From Pirellulales bacterium (GTDB lineage Bacteria; Planctomycetota; Planctomycetia; Pirellulales; JALHPA01), in contig JANRLT010000014.1 in the NCBI GenBank assembly GCA_033762255.1, forward strand, positions 62,001 through 126,000: a stretch of DNA of 64,000 nt, given 5' to 3'. The translations under genes and the position numbers were made by a program. The notes beneath the pieces are model-generated. The model searched no databases, was not told where the DNA came from, and worked only from the letters and a program-made list of their open reading frames with translations. Within the stretch, counting starts at the first letter, position 1, and each line of letters starts with the position of its first letter. Below, in pieces: positions 13,184 through 36,248 of the stretch.

Positions 13184-14758
13184 TTAGTGAAGTAGAGTGA
13201 GTGGGTGGTGGTTAGTGGAGAGTTCAATTCTTAATTCATAATTTTTAATTGCCTCACTCCCCGACCGCACCGCGCTTTCCATTGTCGCGGGCCAGCCGGT
13301 GGCGATCCAGTCACCCGCTAGGTTTAAACCAGGGATTTCCGTCCGCGCGGGGGGACGCAGAGCGTCGCAACCCGGCCGCGGGGCAAAGACCGCCCGTGGT
13401 TGACGGATTACCCGTGCTTGCAACAGCCTCGTTGTCGGCGGCACGGCAAATGCCCCTCGCAATTCGCCATCCACGGTGGCCCCCAGCCGTTCGTTTGACC
13501 AACTGAGCAGCTCATCCGCGGCGCTGATCACCACTTGGTAGAGGTACGCCAGCGACGGGGCAGGGGGGTTGGCGGATTCCGCCAAGGAAGTCTCATTTAC
13601 ATGTGGATAGCCCAATGGATTACTGTCGAATCTATCTGGGCTAGCGCCCATAAGCGACACCCCTCCCCGTGCAAAGACCCATTGGCTGACGCGCCCCGGC
13701 AACACCGCGTGCGGCAACTCGGTCAGTGGCTGGTCATACCCTAAATGCACGCTGATAATGGCCGTGGCTGGCAAAGTCGCCAACCCCGCTAGCCACGGCA
13801 ATTGCGCGTGCCACGCTGGTTCGAGCACGCCCGCCACCTTATGCCACGGTACCGCCAGAATGACTCGCCTTGAAATCAGGCTCCCGCCGTCCGCTAATTG
13901 CACGCGGAATCCGCCGGGCGCAGCGGTCGTATTGGTTTCATCCGTGTTACTCCCCCGTTCCCCCGTGATCAGTTTGACCGTGGTCCCCAGTTTTACCTCC
14001 ACGCCCTGTTCCCGCAGCCAAGGGAGCGCCCGCTCGTGTAGAATTTCCGCCAGGGGCCGCCGGGGGATTAGCATTTCGTACCCATCGCGACGGGATAAAA
14101 ACGCGTCATAAAAAACCTTATGCGCGGCGGCGTAACCCACCTGCTCCAGCGTGTCCGAAAGCGCGCTTTCCACCACGGGCGTCCAAAAAAGTTCGCATAA
14201 ACGGGGACTATTGCCACAGTCCCGCAAAAACCGGCCAAAAGTCAATTGCGGTGGCATTTTCCCCGGCGGGGACCGCCATAATCGCCAAAACGTCCAGCCG
14301 ATCCGACATTTTTCGGCCCAGGTTAAGAAGCTTAAATTCCTCATGCCGCCGGCCAGGTGCAACGGCGCGGGAAGGTAAGGATTGGCGGTAAAGCGGCAGA
14401 CGCGGCCGTCCGGGCCGATAAAATGCAGCGTCCGTTCGCGGATAAATTCATTTTCACAGCCCAGGCGTTGCATCAACCGCCAGAATTCGTCACAGCAACC
14501 CAGACTGACATGCTGACAGAGGTCCAGCCACTCGCCGGTTTCGGCATCGATAAAGGCTCCCGCGCGGCCCCCCAGGCTCGACCGGGCCTCGATAAGCGTG
14601 ATTGGCACTTTTGGCTTGTTAGATTCGTGCTTTGCGCTTTGCGCGGCCTGCTGTGCCAACCGGGCGGCCGCGGCCAGGCCAGCCAATCCTCCGCCAATGA
14701 TCACGACGGGGAAGGGGGCCCCTCCAAGCTGCTCCTTCGCATCTCTGTTGTCAGCCAT
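13184..14758 (-). CDS. hpnE: Hydroxysqualene dehydroxylase HpnE
   Basis: A 524-residue flavoprotein of the amine oxidase/phytoene desaturase family. VVIIGGGLAGLAAAARLAQ (residues about 17-36) is the FAD-binding GxGxxG fold, followed by LIEARSSLGGRAGAF. The C-terminal LNLAGDWIATGWPATMESAVRSG is the FAD-closing motif. In the three-gene bacterial route, HpnE reduces hydroxysqualene to squalene. Its ATG lies inside the end of hpnD (8-nt overlap), and the order hpnC-hpnD-hpnE fixes the assignment over carotenoid desaturases. The start at MADNRD avoids a longer frame that reads through hpnD. Confidence 0.92.
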   Translation of the reverse strand: MADNRDAKEQLGGAPFPVVIIGGGLAGLAAAARLAQQAAQSAKHESNKPKVPITLIEARSSLGGRAGAFIDAETGEWLDLCQHVSLGCCDEFWRLMQRLGCENEFIRERTLHFIGPDGRVCRFTANPYLPAPLHLAGGMRNLSFLTWAEKCRIGWTFWRLWRSPPGKMPPQLTFGRFLRDCGNSPRLCELFWTPVVESALSDTLEQVGYAAAHKVFYDAFLSRRDGYEMLIPRRPLAEILHERALPWLREQGVEVKLGTTVKLITGERGSNTDETNTTAAPGGFRVQLADGGSLISRRVILAVPWHKVAGVLEPAWHAQLPWLAGLATLPATAIISVHLGYDQPLTELPHAVLPGRVSQWVFARGGVSLMGASPDRFDSNPLGYPHVNETSLAESANPPAPSLAYLYQVVISAADELLSWSNERLGATVDGELRGAFAVPPTTRLLQARVIRQPRAVFAPRPGCDALRPPARTEIPGLNLAGDWIATGWPATMESAVRSGSEAIKNYELRIELSTNHHPLTLLH

Positions 14759-32648: not shown

Positions 32649-33443
32649 TTAGGTTCTTATCTGGGGCAATGGAATACTATAGGCTTTCAGATCCGCGATC
32701 AGTCGTGGAAGAATTTTATCGAATACCTGCGGATGATTGCTTCGATTGAAAACAATGTACTCGTAGATGCTCTGAAGCTCGCCGACGTATTGCGTATCAA
32801 TTGAGTCCTCGACAAGGAGCAGTGGCTGTTTGCCGAAGGCGACGGCCACTCCGGTTTCTTGATAAAGCCAAACGCTCGACGCGAAAGTACCGCTTGACAA
32901 CTCAATTCGTTTCGTGACAAGGCAGATAAAAAACCGTGCGCGTTTGATCTTGGTGAGGATCGATGTCCGAAAGTCCTCAAGACCCTCAGCTCGTCCATCA
33001 ACCAATTCGAATCCGGCCGGCGTCAGCACGCGGTCACGAATGTAGGAAACCAGCGCGGTATCGTCGGCGTTGAATTGATGCGCGACAAATACTTGGTGTG
33101 GTTGCTGCTCTTGATACAAAAGTGATCGGTCGTCGTCAGGAAGTCCACCTGCATCTGCTGCATCGCGTCCTTTTTGCGTCAATTGTTTCCAGAACGGGCC
33201 ACGGATTGTCGCGCTGCTTTCACCGATGTAATGGCTGTATTGCAGCCAACAGATTGCGGCGTCGATCTCTGCCATCGGATAGCGAGTTAGCAAGTATCGA
33301 TAGAGGTCGGCATCCGTGAAGGCATCTTTGTGGCGGGAATTTTGTTCGCTCGGCGGATCAGACACGTGCATCGTCGTTGTCAGCGTGAGCGTTCTTCCTC
33401 GCGCGAATTGGAGAATATTGAGGCAGATGGATTCGGAGACCAT
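32649..33443 (-). CDS. TIR-like domain protein, probable defence effector
   Basis: A 264-residue protein; the start is the ATG of MVSESIC (AGAAG about 10 nt upstream). Residues about 1-110 are a helical region that may be a winged helix (FTDADLYRYLLTRYPMAEIDAAICWLQYSHYIG). From about 115 the sequence follows the TIR fold: strand HQVFVAHQF, helix, strand GFELVDGRA, then ILTKIKRARFFICLVTKR, and SSVWLYQETGVAVAFGKQPLLLVED, where the Glu of YQE matches the position of the catalytic Glu in NAD-cleaving TIR domains. It is probably an NADase-type or nucleotide-sensing effector. It is the last gene of the attC-separated array. Seen: motifs. Inferred: function. Confidence 0.75.
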   Translation of the reverse strand: MVSESICLNILQFARGRTLTLTTTMHVSDPPSEQNSRHKDAFTDADLYRYLLTRYPMAEIDAAICWLQYSHYIGESSATIRGPFWKQLTQKGRDAADAGGLPDDDRSLLYQEQQPHQVFVAHQFNADDTALVSYIRDRVLTPAGFELVDGRAEGLEDFRTSILTKIKRARFFICLVTKRIELSSGTFASSVWLYQETGVAVAFGKQPLLLVEDSIDTQYVGELQSIYEYIVFNRSNHPQVFDKILPRLIADLKAYSIPLPQIRT

Positions 33444-33488
33444 TTTGATGTGTCTTCTCTGCTGTGGACAGTCGCGCCTACTCAAAGA

Positions 33489-33578
33489 ACCTAACGCTAC
33501 ACGTCACCGAGCGACCAGTGACTAACATACCATTGGAAAACGCGACGCCGGTCGGTTTGGTGCACGTGTTTGTTATTC
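33489..33578 (-). other. attC site 3, after the membrane-protein cassette
   Basis: Read on the minus strand: GAATAAC at one end and GTTAGGT at the other, the latter preceded by GC as in classical GCGTTAGRY. Arms ACACGT-G-CACC and GGTGACGTGT pair over ten bases with a single extrahelical G. After an unpaired spacer, CGACC and GGTCG pair. The TAA in GAATAAC is the stop codon of the upstream gene. This is the clearest of the three sites. Confidence 0.8.
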
Positions 33579-33941
33579 CGGTTTGTCTTCTGCTGGGTCG
33601 GTGTCAAACACCATGATACGAGACGAATCAGCAAGAAGGCTAGAGATCTGTTCAGGTTTCAATTCCACATTGATTTGAGTTATGGAGTAATTGTTATGAG
33701 TGATAGAAGCGTTTCTGGATTTTCTCGAAGCGACCCATGCAGCAAGAACAGTGCCGATAGCCGTAATGAAGGTGGTAGCGATAGTGATAACATCTCCACC
33801 AGCCACAACGTTTCCAGGTGCGGGACGGTTACGGACATACGTAATGCCAGAACTGTCAAGAATAGCGATAAAGGCTGCACTGCCTTTGCCAGTCAAGCTG
33901 ACCCGGATGCCAGGTTCGACGTTTTCCGTTTTACTACTCAT
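33573..33941 (-). CDS. One-helix membrane protein in the cassette array
   Basis: A 122-residue protein with GAGG about 9 nt before its ATG. Residues about 1-42 are polar, with IRVSLTGKGSAAFIAILDSSGITYV resembling a beta hairpin. VITIATTFITAIGTVLAAWVA (about 50-70) is a single membrane helix followed by SRKSR, which predicts the C-terminal part in the cytoplasm. The tail contains LKPEQISSLLADSSRIMVFD. No family recognised. Its stop codon overlaps attC site 3, and the TIR-like gene begins 130 nt further on, so the two are adjacent cassettes and may or may not act together. Confidence 0.7.
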   Translation of the reverse strand: MSSKTENVEPGIRVSLTGKGSAAFIAILDSSGITYVRNRPAPGNVVAGGDVITIATTFITAIGTVLAAWVASRKSRNASITHNNYSITQINVELKPEQISSLLADSSRIMVFDTDPAEDKPE

Positions 33942-34063
33942 GGGTTGTTGCCTCGCTTGCGTGTGGCATGGTCATTGGTTCAGTCAGCGGATGGCGTTGC
34001 TATAACGGGGAAAGCTATTTGGGGTCGAAAGCCAGACGTTCGGGACGTGGTCAAAAATTGAAG

Positions 34064-34153
34064 GAATAACGACAGGATCACGCGGGCGGCGCGAGTGAAC
34101 CAACCATCGTCTACCGATGCGAACGCCGCCTCGCGTGCATCCGGTGGTTATGC
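34064..34153 (-). other. attC site 2, after the lipoprotein cassette
   Basis: Minus strand: starts GCATAAC, ends GTTATTC. Arms GGAT-G-CACGCG and CGCGTGATCC pair with one extrahelical G; inside them GGCGGCG pairs with CGCCGCC. It begins 4 nt after the lipoprotein stop codon. The right end deviates from GTTRRRY at one base. Confidence 0.75.
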
Positions 34154-34157
34154 CGTT

Positions 34158-34880
34158 TCATAATCCCTGCAATAGTGCTTGTTGGAACTCTGCAAAGCTG
34201 AGGGCGTTGCGTTGGATATCTGTGACGAATTCCGGACGCTGTTTGAGCGCTGAAAACAGGGTAAGCATTCTTGAAGCGTGTTTACGCGCTTTTGAACCCG
34301 GAGAGAACGTGGTAAATCCGCCGGCACCCTTGACCTCGACATTGTATGCTTTCGAATATCGAGTGACATCCAAGAACTGTCCGGCGGATGGCTCGACGTA
34401 CGGGAGCATGGTTGCGAATTCTATCGTTACTCCTTTGACCGTTTGCCGCGAAACCATATTGCTTGGAAAGCGATGAGTCGCGGACTTGTTGCCGGATGTT
34501 GCTGTTATTTGCTGAACCCCCAGAGGTGCGACTTGTGAGAAATGTACTAGCTTGAGCATCATGATTGGTTCATTCTCAGCGATTCTGATGCCGTAGACGA
34601 TCTGTGCCGACTTACCTTGCGCCGTGATTACGTCAACATTCGGTATCATGTCGCCGGGAAACACAATGTCATAAAGCTCGTCGTCTTGAGTTCTGCCGAC
34701 GATCATGCCTTCAGTAAGTGCTTTGAAGTCATAAGTAGTGGCGCTCTGAGTCTGCGACGAAGCGCCGTGACTGTGGGCAGGCGTCGAGTGCGGACGTGGT
34801 TTGCCGACGGGGGCGCGGCTGGGTGCTGTGTCGCCGCATCCCACGATGAAGACTGCGAGTATGATCGTCGCTCGGTTCAT
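34158..34880 (-). CDS. Lipoprotein of unknown function in the cassette array
   Basis: A 240-residue protein. MNRATIILAVFIVGCGD is a lipoprotein signal with lipobox IVGC. Residues about 20-45 are a His/Pro/Ser-rich linker (PHSTPAHSHGASSQTQ). The body starts YDFKALTEGMIVGRTQDDELYDIVFP and is beta-rich until about 195, then helical (SRMLTLFSALKQRPEFVTDIQRNALSFAEFQQALL). No family recognised. It should be anchored in a membrane facing the periplasm. It lies between attC sites 1 and 2. Confidence 0.75.
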   Translation of the reverse strand: MNRATIILAVFIVGCGDTAPSRAPVGKPRPHSTPAHSHGASSQTQSATTYDFKALTEGMIVGRTQDDELYDIVFPGDMIPNVDVITAQGKSAQIVYGIRIAENEPIMMLKLVHFSQVAPLGVQQITATSGNKSATHRFPSNMVSRQTVKGVTIEFATMLPYVEPSAGQFLDVTRYSKAYNVEVKGAGGFTTFSPGSKARKHASRMLTLFSALKQRPEFVTDIQRNALSFAEFQQALLQGL

Positions 34881-34898
34881 TGTTGTTCAACCTTAGTG

Positions 34899-34993
34899 CA
34901 TAACGACCCAAGCACAGCGACCCGGCCTACGAGGGCGTGCGATTGCAACCGCGACGCTCACGCCGGGTTCGCTGCAGAGTGCATGGTTAGGCA
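34899..34993 (-). other. attC site 1, after the Zn-ribbon cassette
   Basis: Minus strand: starts GCCTAAC (an exact RYYYAAC), ends GTTATGC. Arms CAGCGA-A-CCCGGC and GCCGGGTCGCTG pair with one extrahelical A, and an outer GCA/TGC pair encloses a 5-nt bulge. It begins 5 nt after the stop of the Zn-ribbon gene. Confidence 0.75.
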
Positions 34994-34998
34994 TCATG

Positions 34999-35232
34999 TC
35001 AATCTTCATGCTGACTCTTCGGCTGTGCCGTCTCGATCTCCGTGATATGATTACGAATGACGCTGCCGCATTTTCTGCAAAATCCTTCGACAACAATCTT
35101 CCCATCTTGCTCAAACTCGCGTGCATCTCGCATACCCAAATCTGCCGCCTCACAAACTTCACACCACGAATCTTCAGTGAGTATCTGCTGCTCTGCTGGA
35201 GAACGGGAGGAAAAATTGCGAGGTGTTTTCAT
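34999..35232 (-). CDS. Small Zn-ribbon protein in the cassette array
   Basis: A 77-residue protein, MKTPRNFSSRSPAEQQ onward. SWCEVCEAADLG and GFCRKCGSVIR give two CxxC pairs about 27 residues apart, a zinc-ribbon layout. No other domain, no signal peptide. The ribosome binding site is weak and a TTG 12 nt upstream is possible. It is the first recognisable cassette; I could not find an attC site or attI upstream of it. Confidence 0.6.
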   Translation of the reverse strand: MKTPRNFSSRSPAEQQILTEDSWCEVCEAADLGMRDAREFEQDGKIVVEGFCRKCGSVIRNHITEIETAQPKSQHED

Positions 35233-35771
35233 GATGCCGAACAATCAGTATTCAGAAATCTGCATATTACAAATCTGATCCCATTCTGCATAATTCATGT
35301 TTACCGTCAATACTTTTCAGTAATTTTCCGACTTGCCGTTCTATCTGTGGATTTCTGTAAATTTGTGTTATGCCCAATCACTCATATTCCCCCACGCTGG
35401 CTGCCGTACCTCTACTGACGCAGGTGCGGCAATTGATGCGTCCCAGTTAGCTCTCGATCCCCATCGAACCAGCGGGTTAGCATCGAGAATTACAGCCTGC
35501 CGGTGTCGCACAGACCAGCGGGTATGGCGAGCAGGTCGTGACCTGATCCTGCGGGGTCGGGAGTCGTGGGCGGTGCAAACGTGTTTGGCTAGGCAGCGCA
35601 ATTCGCCCAGGACTCCCGACCCCCTCACGCATGACATGCCCCAGGGGGACGGGAATCCTTGGCGACGATGCTGTGCAAATGACTGGCCCACTCGCGCCAA
35701 CGATTCCCGACCCCGGGGAGTGTTTCTAGGGCGGCTTACCCCGGGTAGTCGCTGCGCTAACCCGGGGCTAA

Positions 35772-35868
35772 GGGCTGTAACCGCGTTGCGGTTAGGCAGG
35801 CATTTAACCAAAAACCAAATACCAGTAACCAAAAACCAGCAGGCCCCGCGCTCCGCTGCGCGTCGCGG
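35772..35868. repeat. Long repeat A, copy 1
   Basis: About 97 nt beginning GGGCTGTAACCGCGTTGCGG and containing two near-copies of AACCAAAAACCA, nearly identical to 36098-36195. Confidence 0.85.
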
Positions 35869-36025
35869 GTGCGGTGGGATCGGCGAGCACAACTCGCCGC
35901 CACGAAGAATACGGCGACGAAACGTCGCCGCTACAGGAAGAACGGCGACCACGTCTGGATGTCTTCTCCGTGACCCTCGGTGACTTCTCCGTCACTCCGT
36001 GATAAATGTATTTTCGGGTCTGTCA

Positions 36026-36102
36026 TGCCGCGCTCCGCTGCGCGTCGCGGCTAAACAATTCCTAGAAAATGCAATGGCGGAACACGTTCTGTTCTACGGG
36101 GC
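36026..36102. repeat. Long repeat B, copy 1
   Basis: About 77 nt from GCCGCGCTCCGCTGCGCG through CAATTCCTAGAAAATG to a copy of the GGAACACGTTC palindrome. It overlaps the start of repeat A copy 2, and recurs at 36174-36248. Confidence 0.85.
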
Positions 36103-36195
36103 TGTAACCGCGTTGCGGTTAGGCAGGCATTTAACCAAAAACCAAATACCAGCAACCAAAAACCAGCAGCCCCCGCGCTCCGCTCCGCGTCGCGG
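36098..36195. repeat. Long repeat A, copy 2
   Basis: Second copy of 35772-35868 with a few substitutions (for example CCAGCAACC for CCAGTAACC). Confidence 0.85.
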
Positions 36196-36248
36196 CTAAA
36201 CAATTCCTAGAAAATGTAATGGCGGAACACGTTCCGTTCTACGGGGCT
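36174..36248. repeat. Long repeat B, copy 2
   Basis: Second copy of 36026-36102, including CGGAACACGTTCCG at 36223-36236. A and B thus alternate A-B-A-B with overlaps. Confidence 0.85.

Follow-up and report, generated by a model that had tools for sequence, protein, structure and literature searches.

The 64-kb window (the whole stretch of DNA analysed here) contains three small genes on its minus strand, each followed by a hairpin-like site, and these units are arranged head to tail. The first unit in the direction of reading (34904..35241, 338 bp from TT to G) consists of a gene for a Zn-ribbon-like small protein (ORF 34999-35244, ATG start at about 35232) and the site that we number 3. It is followed by a unit of 834 bp (34070..34903), bounded by sites 3 and 2, with a gene for a predicted lipoprotein of 240 aa (ORF 34158-34880), and by one of 575 bp (33495..34069), bounded by sites 2 and 1, whose product of 122 aa (ORF 33573-33941) has a hydrophobic stretch and a match to the EACC1 profile that falls below threshold (E 0.0038; 17.6 bits against a cut-off of 23.6). 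Searches of these proteins with PADLOC, NCBIfam and PDB returned nothing useful. Beyond site 1, and also on the minus strand, lies a TIR-like gene (32649..33485) that encodes 264 aa from an ATG at 33443 or 278 aa from a TTG at 33485.

The first-pass annotation had described three sites of 90–95 nt with the architecture of integron attC sites, and these are present where it placed them, read on the minus strand: site 1 (33489..33578, 90 nt, GAATAAC...GTTAGGT), site 2 (34064..34153, 90 nt, GCATAAC...GTTATTC) and site 3 (34898..34992, 95 nt, GCCTAAC...GTTATGC). All three have RYYYAAC-like and GTTRRRY-like ends; GAATAAC, GCATAAC, GTTATTC and GTTATGC depart from the strict forms of these boxes, as do the ends of sites adjacent to integron integrase (IntI) genes in related genomes. 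All three sites fall in a span of 1.5 kb and share one orientation, that of the small genes preceding them; they are placed at stop codons as had been proposed, with the stop of the 122-aa gene falling inside GAATAAC and the other two stops a few bases before their sites. Their inner sequences differ, again as claimed, while the boxes and extrahelical bases are retained. The count of one extrahelical base per site has to be amended, as the consensus left arm has two, a top-strand G and a top-strand A, six pairs apart. A rule-based scan for RNNYAAC...GTTRNNY ends with anchored complementary arms ranked the three sites as the top three of the window (scores of 43, 36 and 36, against 27 for the next), with a maximum of 36 in shuffled windows that were each scored singly, in which comparable scores occurred sporadically. 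An Rfam search at the three sites returned nothing attC-like.

We relied on a covariance model, as the first-pass annotation had suggested, built from 25 attC sites in the neighbourhoods of IntI genes of other members of the order and holding no sequence from the genome under study, which has no full IntI itself; 49 of the 197 genomes of the order have one. The structure of this model is the classical one, with TAAC and GTTA ends, paired arms and two unpaired bases in the left arm. Imperfect L''/L' arms that fold as a hairpin are conserved by covariation in the training alignment, where 88% of cells were paired as compared with 68% after shuffling and no more than 41% when the partners were slid, and double-sided changes numbered 100 against 35. 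The invariance of four TGCA columns provides no evidence because the 25 training sites had been selected with this motif. Searched with this held-out model at E<=10, the 64-kb window gave exactly three matches, on the claimed strand and at 41.9–60.3 bits (E 1e-11 to 2e-7): 45.6 bits for site 1 (E 2.7e-8 in the window), 60.3 bits for site 2 (E 1.1e-11) and 41.9 bits for site 3 (E 1.9e-7). The reverse strand scored at most 15 bits at the same three places, against 42–60 bits, in keeping with the strand polarity that extrahelical bases give to attC sites. A broader model of 106 sites concurred, with 60.8, 47.4 and 43.0 bits for the three sites. The arms of site 3 are, in addition, very similar to those of two attC sites in the array of an IntI-bearing relative (G158; L056:12358-12450 and 13852-13942). 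The first-pass annotation would have taken low model scores at all three sites as a refutation; the scores obtained are high. At the level of sequence, the identification of the three sites as attC is confirmed.

Surveying the order with the model, we found at least one attC at E<=0.001 in 108 of the 197 genomes, our own included. Sites were present in 46 of the 49 genomes with IntI and in 62 of the 148 without a full-length IntI match (Fisher p 1.6e-11), which suggests that genomes of this order commonly have attC sites with no intact intI that can be detected, with the proviso that draft assemblies overstate IntI-less cases (PMC9024848). Among the 106 model-found attC sites near IntI genes of other members of the order, the first unpaired top-strand base is G in most, a share that is biased upward by the TGCA sites used for training. 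The pair next to the unpaired G covaries (TGCA/TGA, TGAA/TTA, TGGA/TCA), and the TGAA and TGGA variants were absent from the training set. With the second unpaired A, the top-strand G corresponds to a predicted bottom strand of the T-N6-C type in most sites.

The predicted borders of one cassette could be examined by comparison within the genome. A second Zn-ribbon cassette lies on another contig (C36) and shares 84% nucleotide and 80% protein identity with the cassette in the window. Homology begins exactly at GTT, which is part of the R' box of the preceding attC on C36 and of GTTCGGC (35242-35236) in the window, and runs through the gene into the attC, stopping at the right end GTTA; the flanks show no relation on either side. 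With the broader model, the C36 copy too is seen to be followed by an attC (24.1 bits). As the homology extends exactly from GTT to the right end of the attC, the predicted cassette boundaries hold for the Zn-ribbon unit, and the expectation that cassettes would break at G/TT is borne out within a single genome. Comparison of strains for the presence or absence of cassettes was less productive: no empty site was found for this locus, relatives show no synteny for the neighbouring genes, and a search through the neighbouring outer-membrane efflux gene led to four close relatives, all without the left neighbour. At the upstream end, GTTCGGC (35242-35236) belongs to no recognisable attC or attI. 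Directly upstream of the Zn-ribbon cassette, a stretch of 138 nt with the ends GCATAAC...GTTCGGC (35236-35373, minus strand) has a symmetric 8-bp stem and is perhaps a decayed site; it received no model score. Further out, at 35735-36240, there are dispersed repeats (of the GCTCCGCTGCGCGTCGCGG type and others) that recur near attC clusters on C36, C27 and other contigs; these may simply be genome-wide repeats.

No counterpart of the lipoprotein gene or the 122-aa gene was found in the 196 other genomes of the order, and among all 197 genomes the Zn-ribbon gene had no copy beyond those in the window and on C36. Conservation of the same gene order in related genomes would have spoken against captured genes; this did not occur, and the absence of the lipoprotein and 122-aa genes from the other 196 genomes shows that the gene order is not a conserved operon. 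The proposed division into three cassettes, for a Zn-ribbon protein, a lipoprotein and a 122-aa protein with a hydrophobic stretch, stands as delimited by the three attC sites.

No IntI-like stretch was detected in the 64 kb, in agreement with the first-pass annotation. The contig (C14, 164,925 bases) has more than 60 kb to each side of the cluster, which excludes a contig break as the reason for the missing IntI. Genome-wide, the TIGR02249 profile found nothing over its cut-off, and only an N-terminal remnant of IntI on contig C47. Two recombinases, on C7 and C72, were considered as IntI and rejected (TIGR02249 at most 78 bits, against a cut-off of 265). The truncated intI (L067:11445-11750, equal to C47:23444-23749, plus strand) encodes only the N-terminal part, which matches one relative at 64% identity over as many as 85 residues, and ends in a stop. 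As the contig runs on in both directions, the gene is truly broken and not cut off by a contig end; the gene that follows looks, by sequence, like a Y1-type transposase. Five attC sites lie upstream of the remnant on the minus strand (L067:8480-10692), in the classical divergent layout. A dead integron of this genome thus lies on C47. A complete integron, with an intact intI and adjoining attI, was not found in the assembly, although this draft, at 96.6% completeness, could lack an intact intI that the genome has.

The search of the whole genome that had been proposed yielded, besides this remnant, a total of 27 attC sites at E<=0.01 (30 matches at E<=0.1) on about a dozen contigs (C1, C11, C14, C27, C30, C36, C39, C47, C56, C60 and C71). 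Model matches form further small clusters at C27:62766-65782, C36:88768-92270 and C11:7211-8971, and C39, C1, C56, C60 and C71 have further small clusters or single attC sites. Cassettes of these other clusters encode DUF4279, DMP19-like and DUF6331 proteins and many proteins of unknown family. Taken with the C47 remnant, the scattered attC sites indicate that the genome formerly had an integron and that it contains several clusters, among them the one in the window.

Clusters of attC sites lacking an integron integrase are known as CALINs, following the definition used by IntegronFinder (PMC9024848, PMC8618304), which looks for at least two attC sites close together, here three in 1.5 kb, and no integrase gene nearby. 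We consider it highly probable (about 95%) that the cluster is a CALIN, comprising three cassettes of an ORF and an attC, head to tail and in one orientation, with no adjacent integrase gene. This call, made by the first-pass annotation, is supported by the identity of the attC sites, their single orientation, the borders of the Zn-ribbon cassette and the lack of IntI nearby. Ordinary palindromes, such as intrinsic terminators or dispersed repeats, might resemble attC by chance, and it is true that two of the hairpins follow closely after stop codons, that one overlaps its stop and that palindromic dispersed repeats occur in intergenic regions near the cluster. However, all three sites are recognized by a model whose training sites lie next to IntI genes in other genomes, their inner sequences vary while boxes and extrahelical bases remain constant, and cassette homology breaks at G/TT, which together make a chance resemblance very improbable.

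The extent of the CALIN is less clear at its downstream end. The TIR-like gene indeed comes last, after the final attC, as the first-pass annotation had it, but it is only a possible cassette and its family assignment is weak: no attC follows it, even with filters off, and the TIR_2 profile gave 12.5 bits against a cut-off of 28 (E 0.22), with a 54% identical relative also far below cut-off (E 0.038). Structure prediction for the TIR-like protein, for which relatives were lacking, gave a pLDDT of 36, too low to inform on the fold. The gene is either a flanking resident or a cassette minus its site. A cassette origin, with an attC that was lost or has decayed beyond recognition and an element of four cassettes, is possible, though we lean somewhat against it: the gene is co-oriented with the others and begins directly after site 1, and an attC-like hairpin is found at the stop codon of a 45% relative from a Chromatiales MAG, whereas the gene has no attC behind it and the 54% relative neighbours a tyrosine recombinase gene in G196, at a distance from the integron of that genome. 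The Chromatiales hairpin (L108:4695-4754, MUGK01000050.1; 21.8 bits, E 1.1e-4) overlaps the stop codon, has an imperfect right end and lies near a contig end; an interruption of this site by a group II intron was considered and dropped, there being no Rfam match. The G196 relative (L106:440-2355) is directly downstream of a gene for a 346-aa tyrosine recombinase and near a ParA-like gene.

Integron integrases recombine folded, single-stranded attC bottom strands at G/TT. The cluster in the window was probably assembled in trans by an IntI-type tyrosine recombinase, which would have joined circular cassettes at the G/TT of attC hairpins, and the most likely source of this enzyme would be the C47 integron, now reduced to a truncated intI and five attC sites. 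Off-target insertion and rearrangement are both recognized origins of CALINs (PMC8618304). The many small scattered clusters, together with the lack of any trace of intI in the window, favour the former, and with moderate confidence off-target insertion would fit the scatter better than the splitting of one large array. The alternative, that the cluster is a piece of the C47 integron displaced by rearrangement, or an array that lost its own intI, draws on the truncated intI with its five sites on C47 and on the proposal of such origins for CALINs generally (PMC8618304), but would require many rearrangements to account for separate clusters and singletons on about a dozen contigs, and is further weakened by the lack of an intI remnant in the window and by the fact that the window cluster has no more than one related cassette in common with the other clusters; we regard it as unlikely. 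Our tentative proposal, which could well prove wrong, is that a once-active integron also seeded cassettes at many secondary chromosomal sites and that, after intI broke, the approximately 27 attC sites on about a dozen contigs were left as fossil traces of cassettes inserted off target; their attC type, with an extrahelical C in place of the classical G on the recombining strand, would be shared by the whole lineage. With a broken intI on C47, the cassettes are now immobile, barring the arrival of an IntI from another source.

The analysis thus places the exact borders of three genes, of unknown function, that a planctomycete has captured. It also provides two diverged cassettes of a single genome between which homology breaks off at the point of recombination. 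In genomes such as this one, where a dead intI is accompanied by scattered cassettes, the formation of CALINs can be approached by direct comparison.

The locus resembles known CALINs in having three attC sites within 1.5 kb, in one orientation and associated with unrelated small genes, with IntI not nearby, and differs in nothing essential, although the genome here also has a truncated intI and many small clusters. Chromosomal attC sites of planctomycetes constitute one of 11 published taxon models (PMC8352920); the IntI-adjacent arrays of this order share their attC type with the present sites, and site 3 closely resembles one of theirs; our sites were scored with our own model, built from other members of the order. 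The top-strand G and A, six pairs apart in the left arm of most sites here, correspond to T-N6-C attC sites, which can be used by known integrases (IntI1, IntI2, IntI3 and SonIntIA were studied; PMC3053210), whereas VCR and class 1 attC sites are classically T-N6-G and C dominates here. As CALINs and planctomycete attC sites are already known (PMC9024848, PMC8352920), the locus is a well-supported new example of both.
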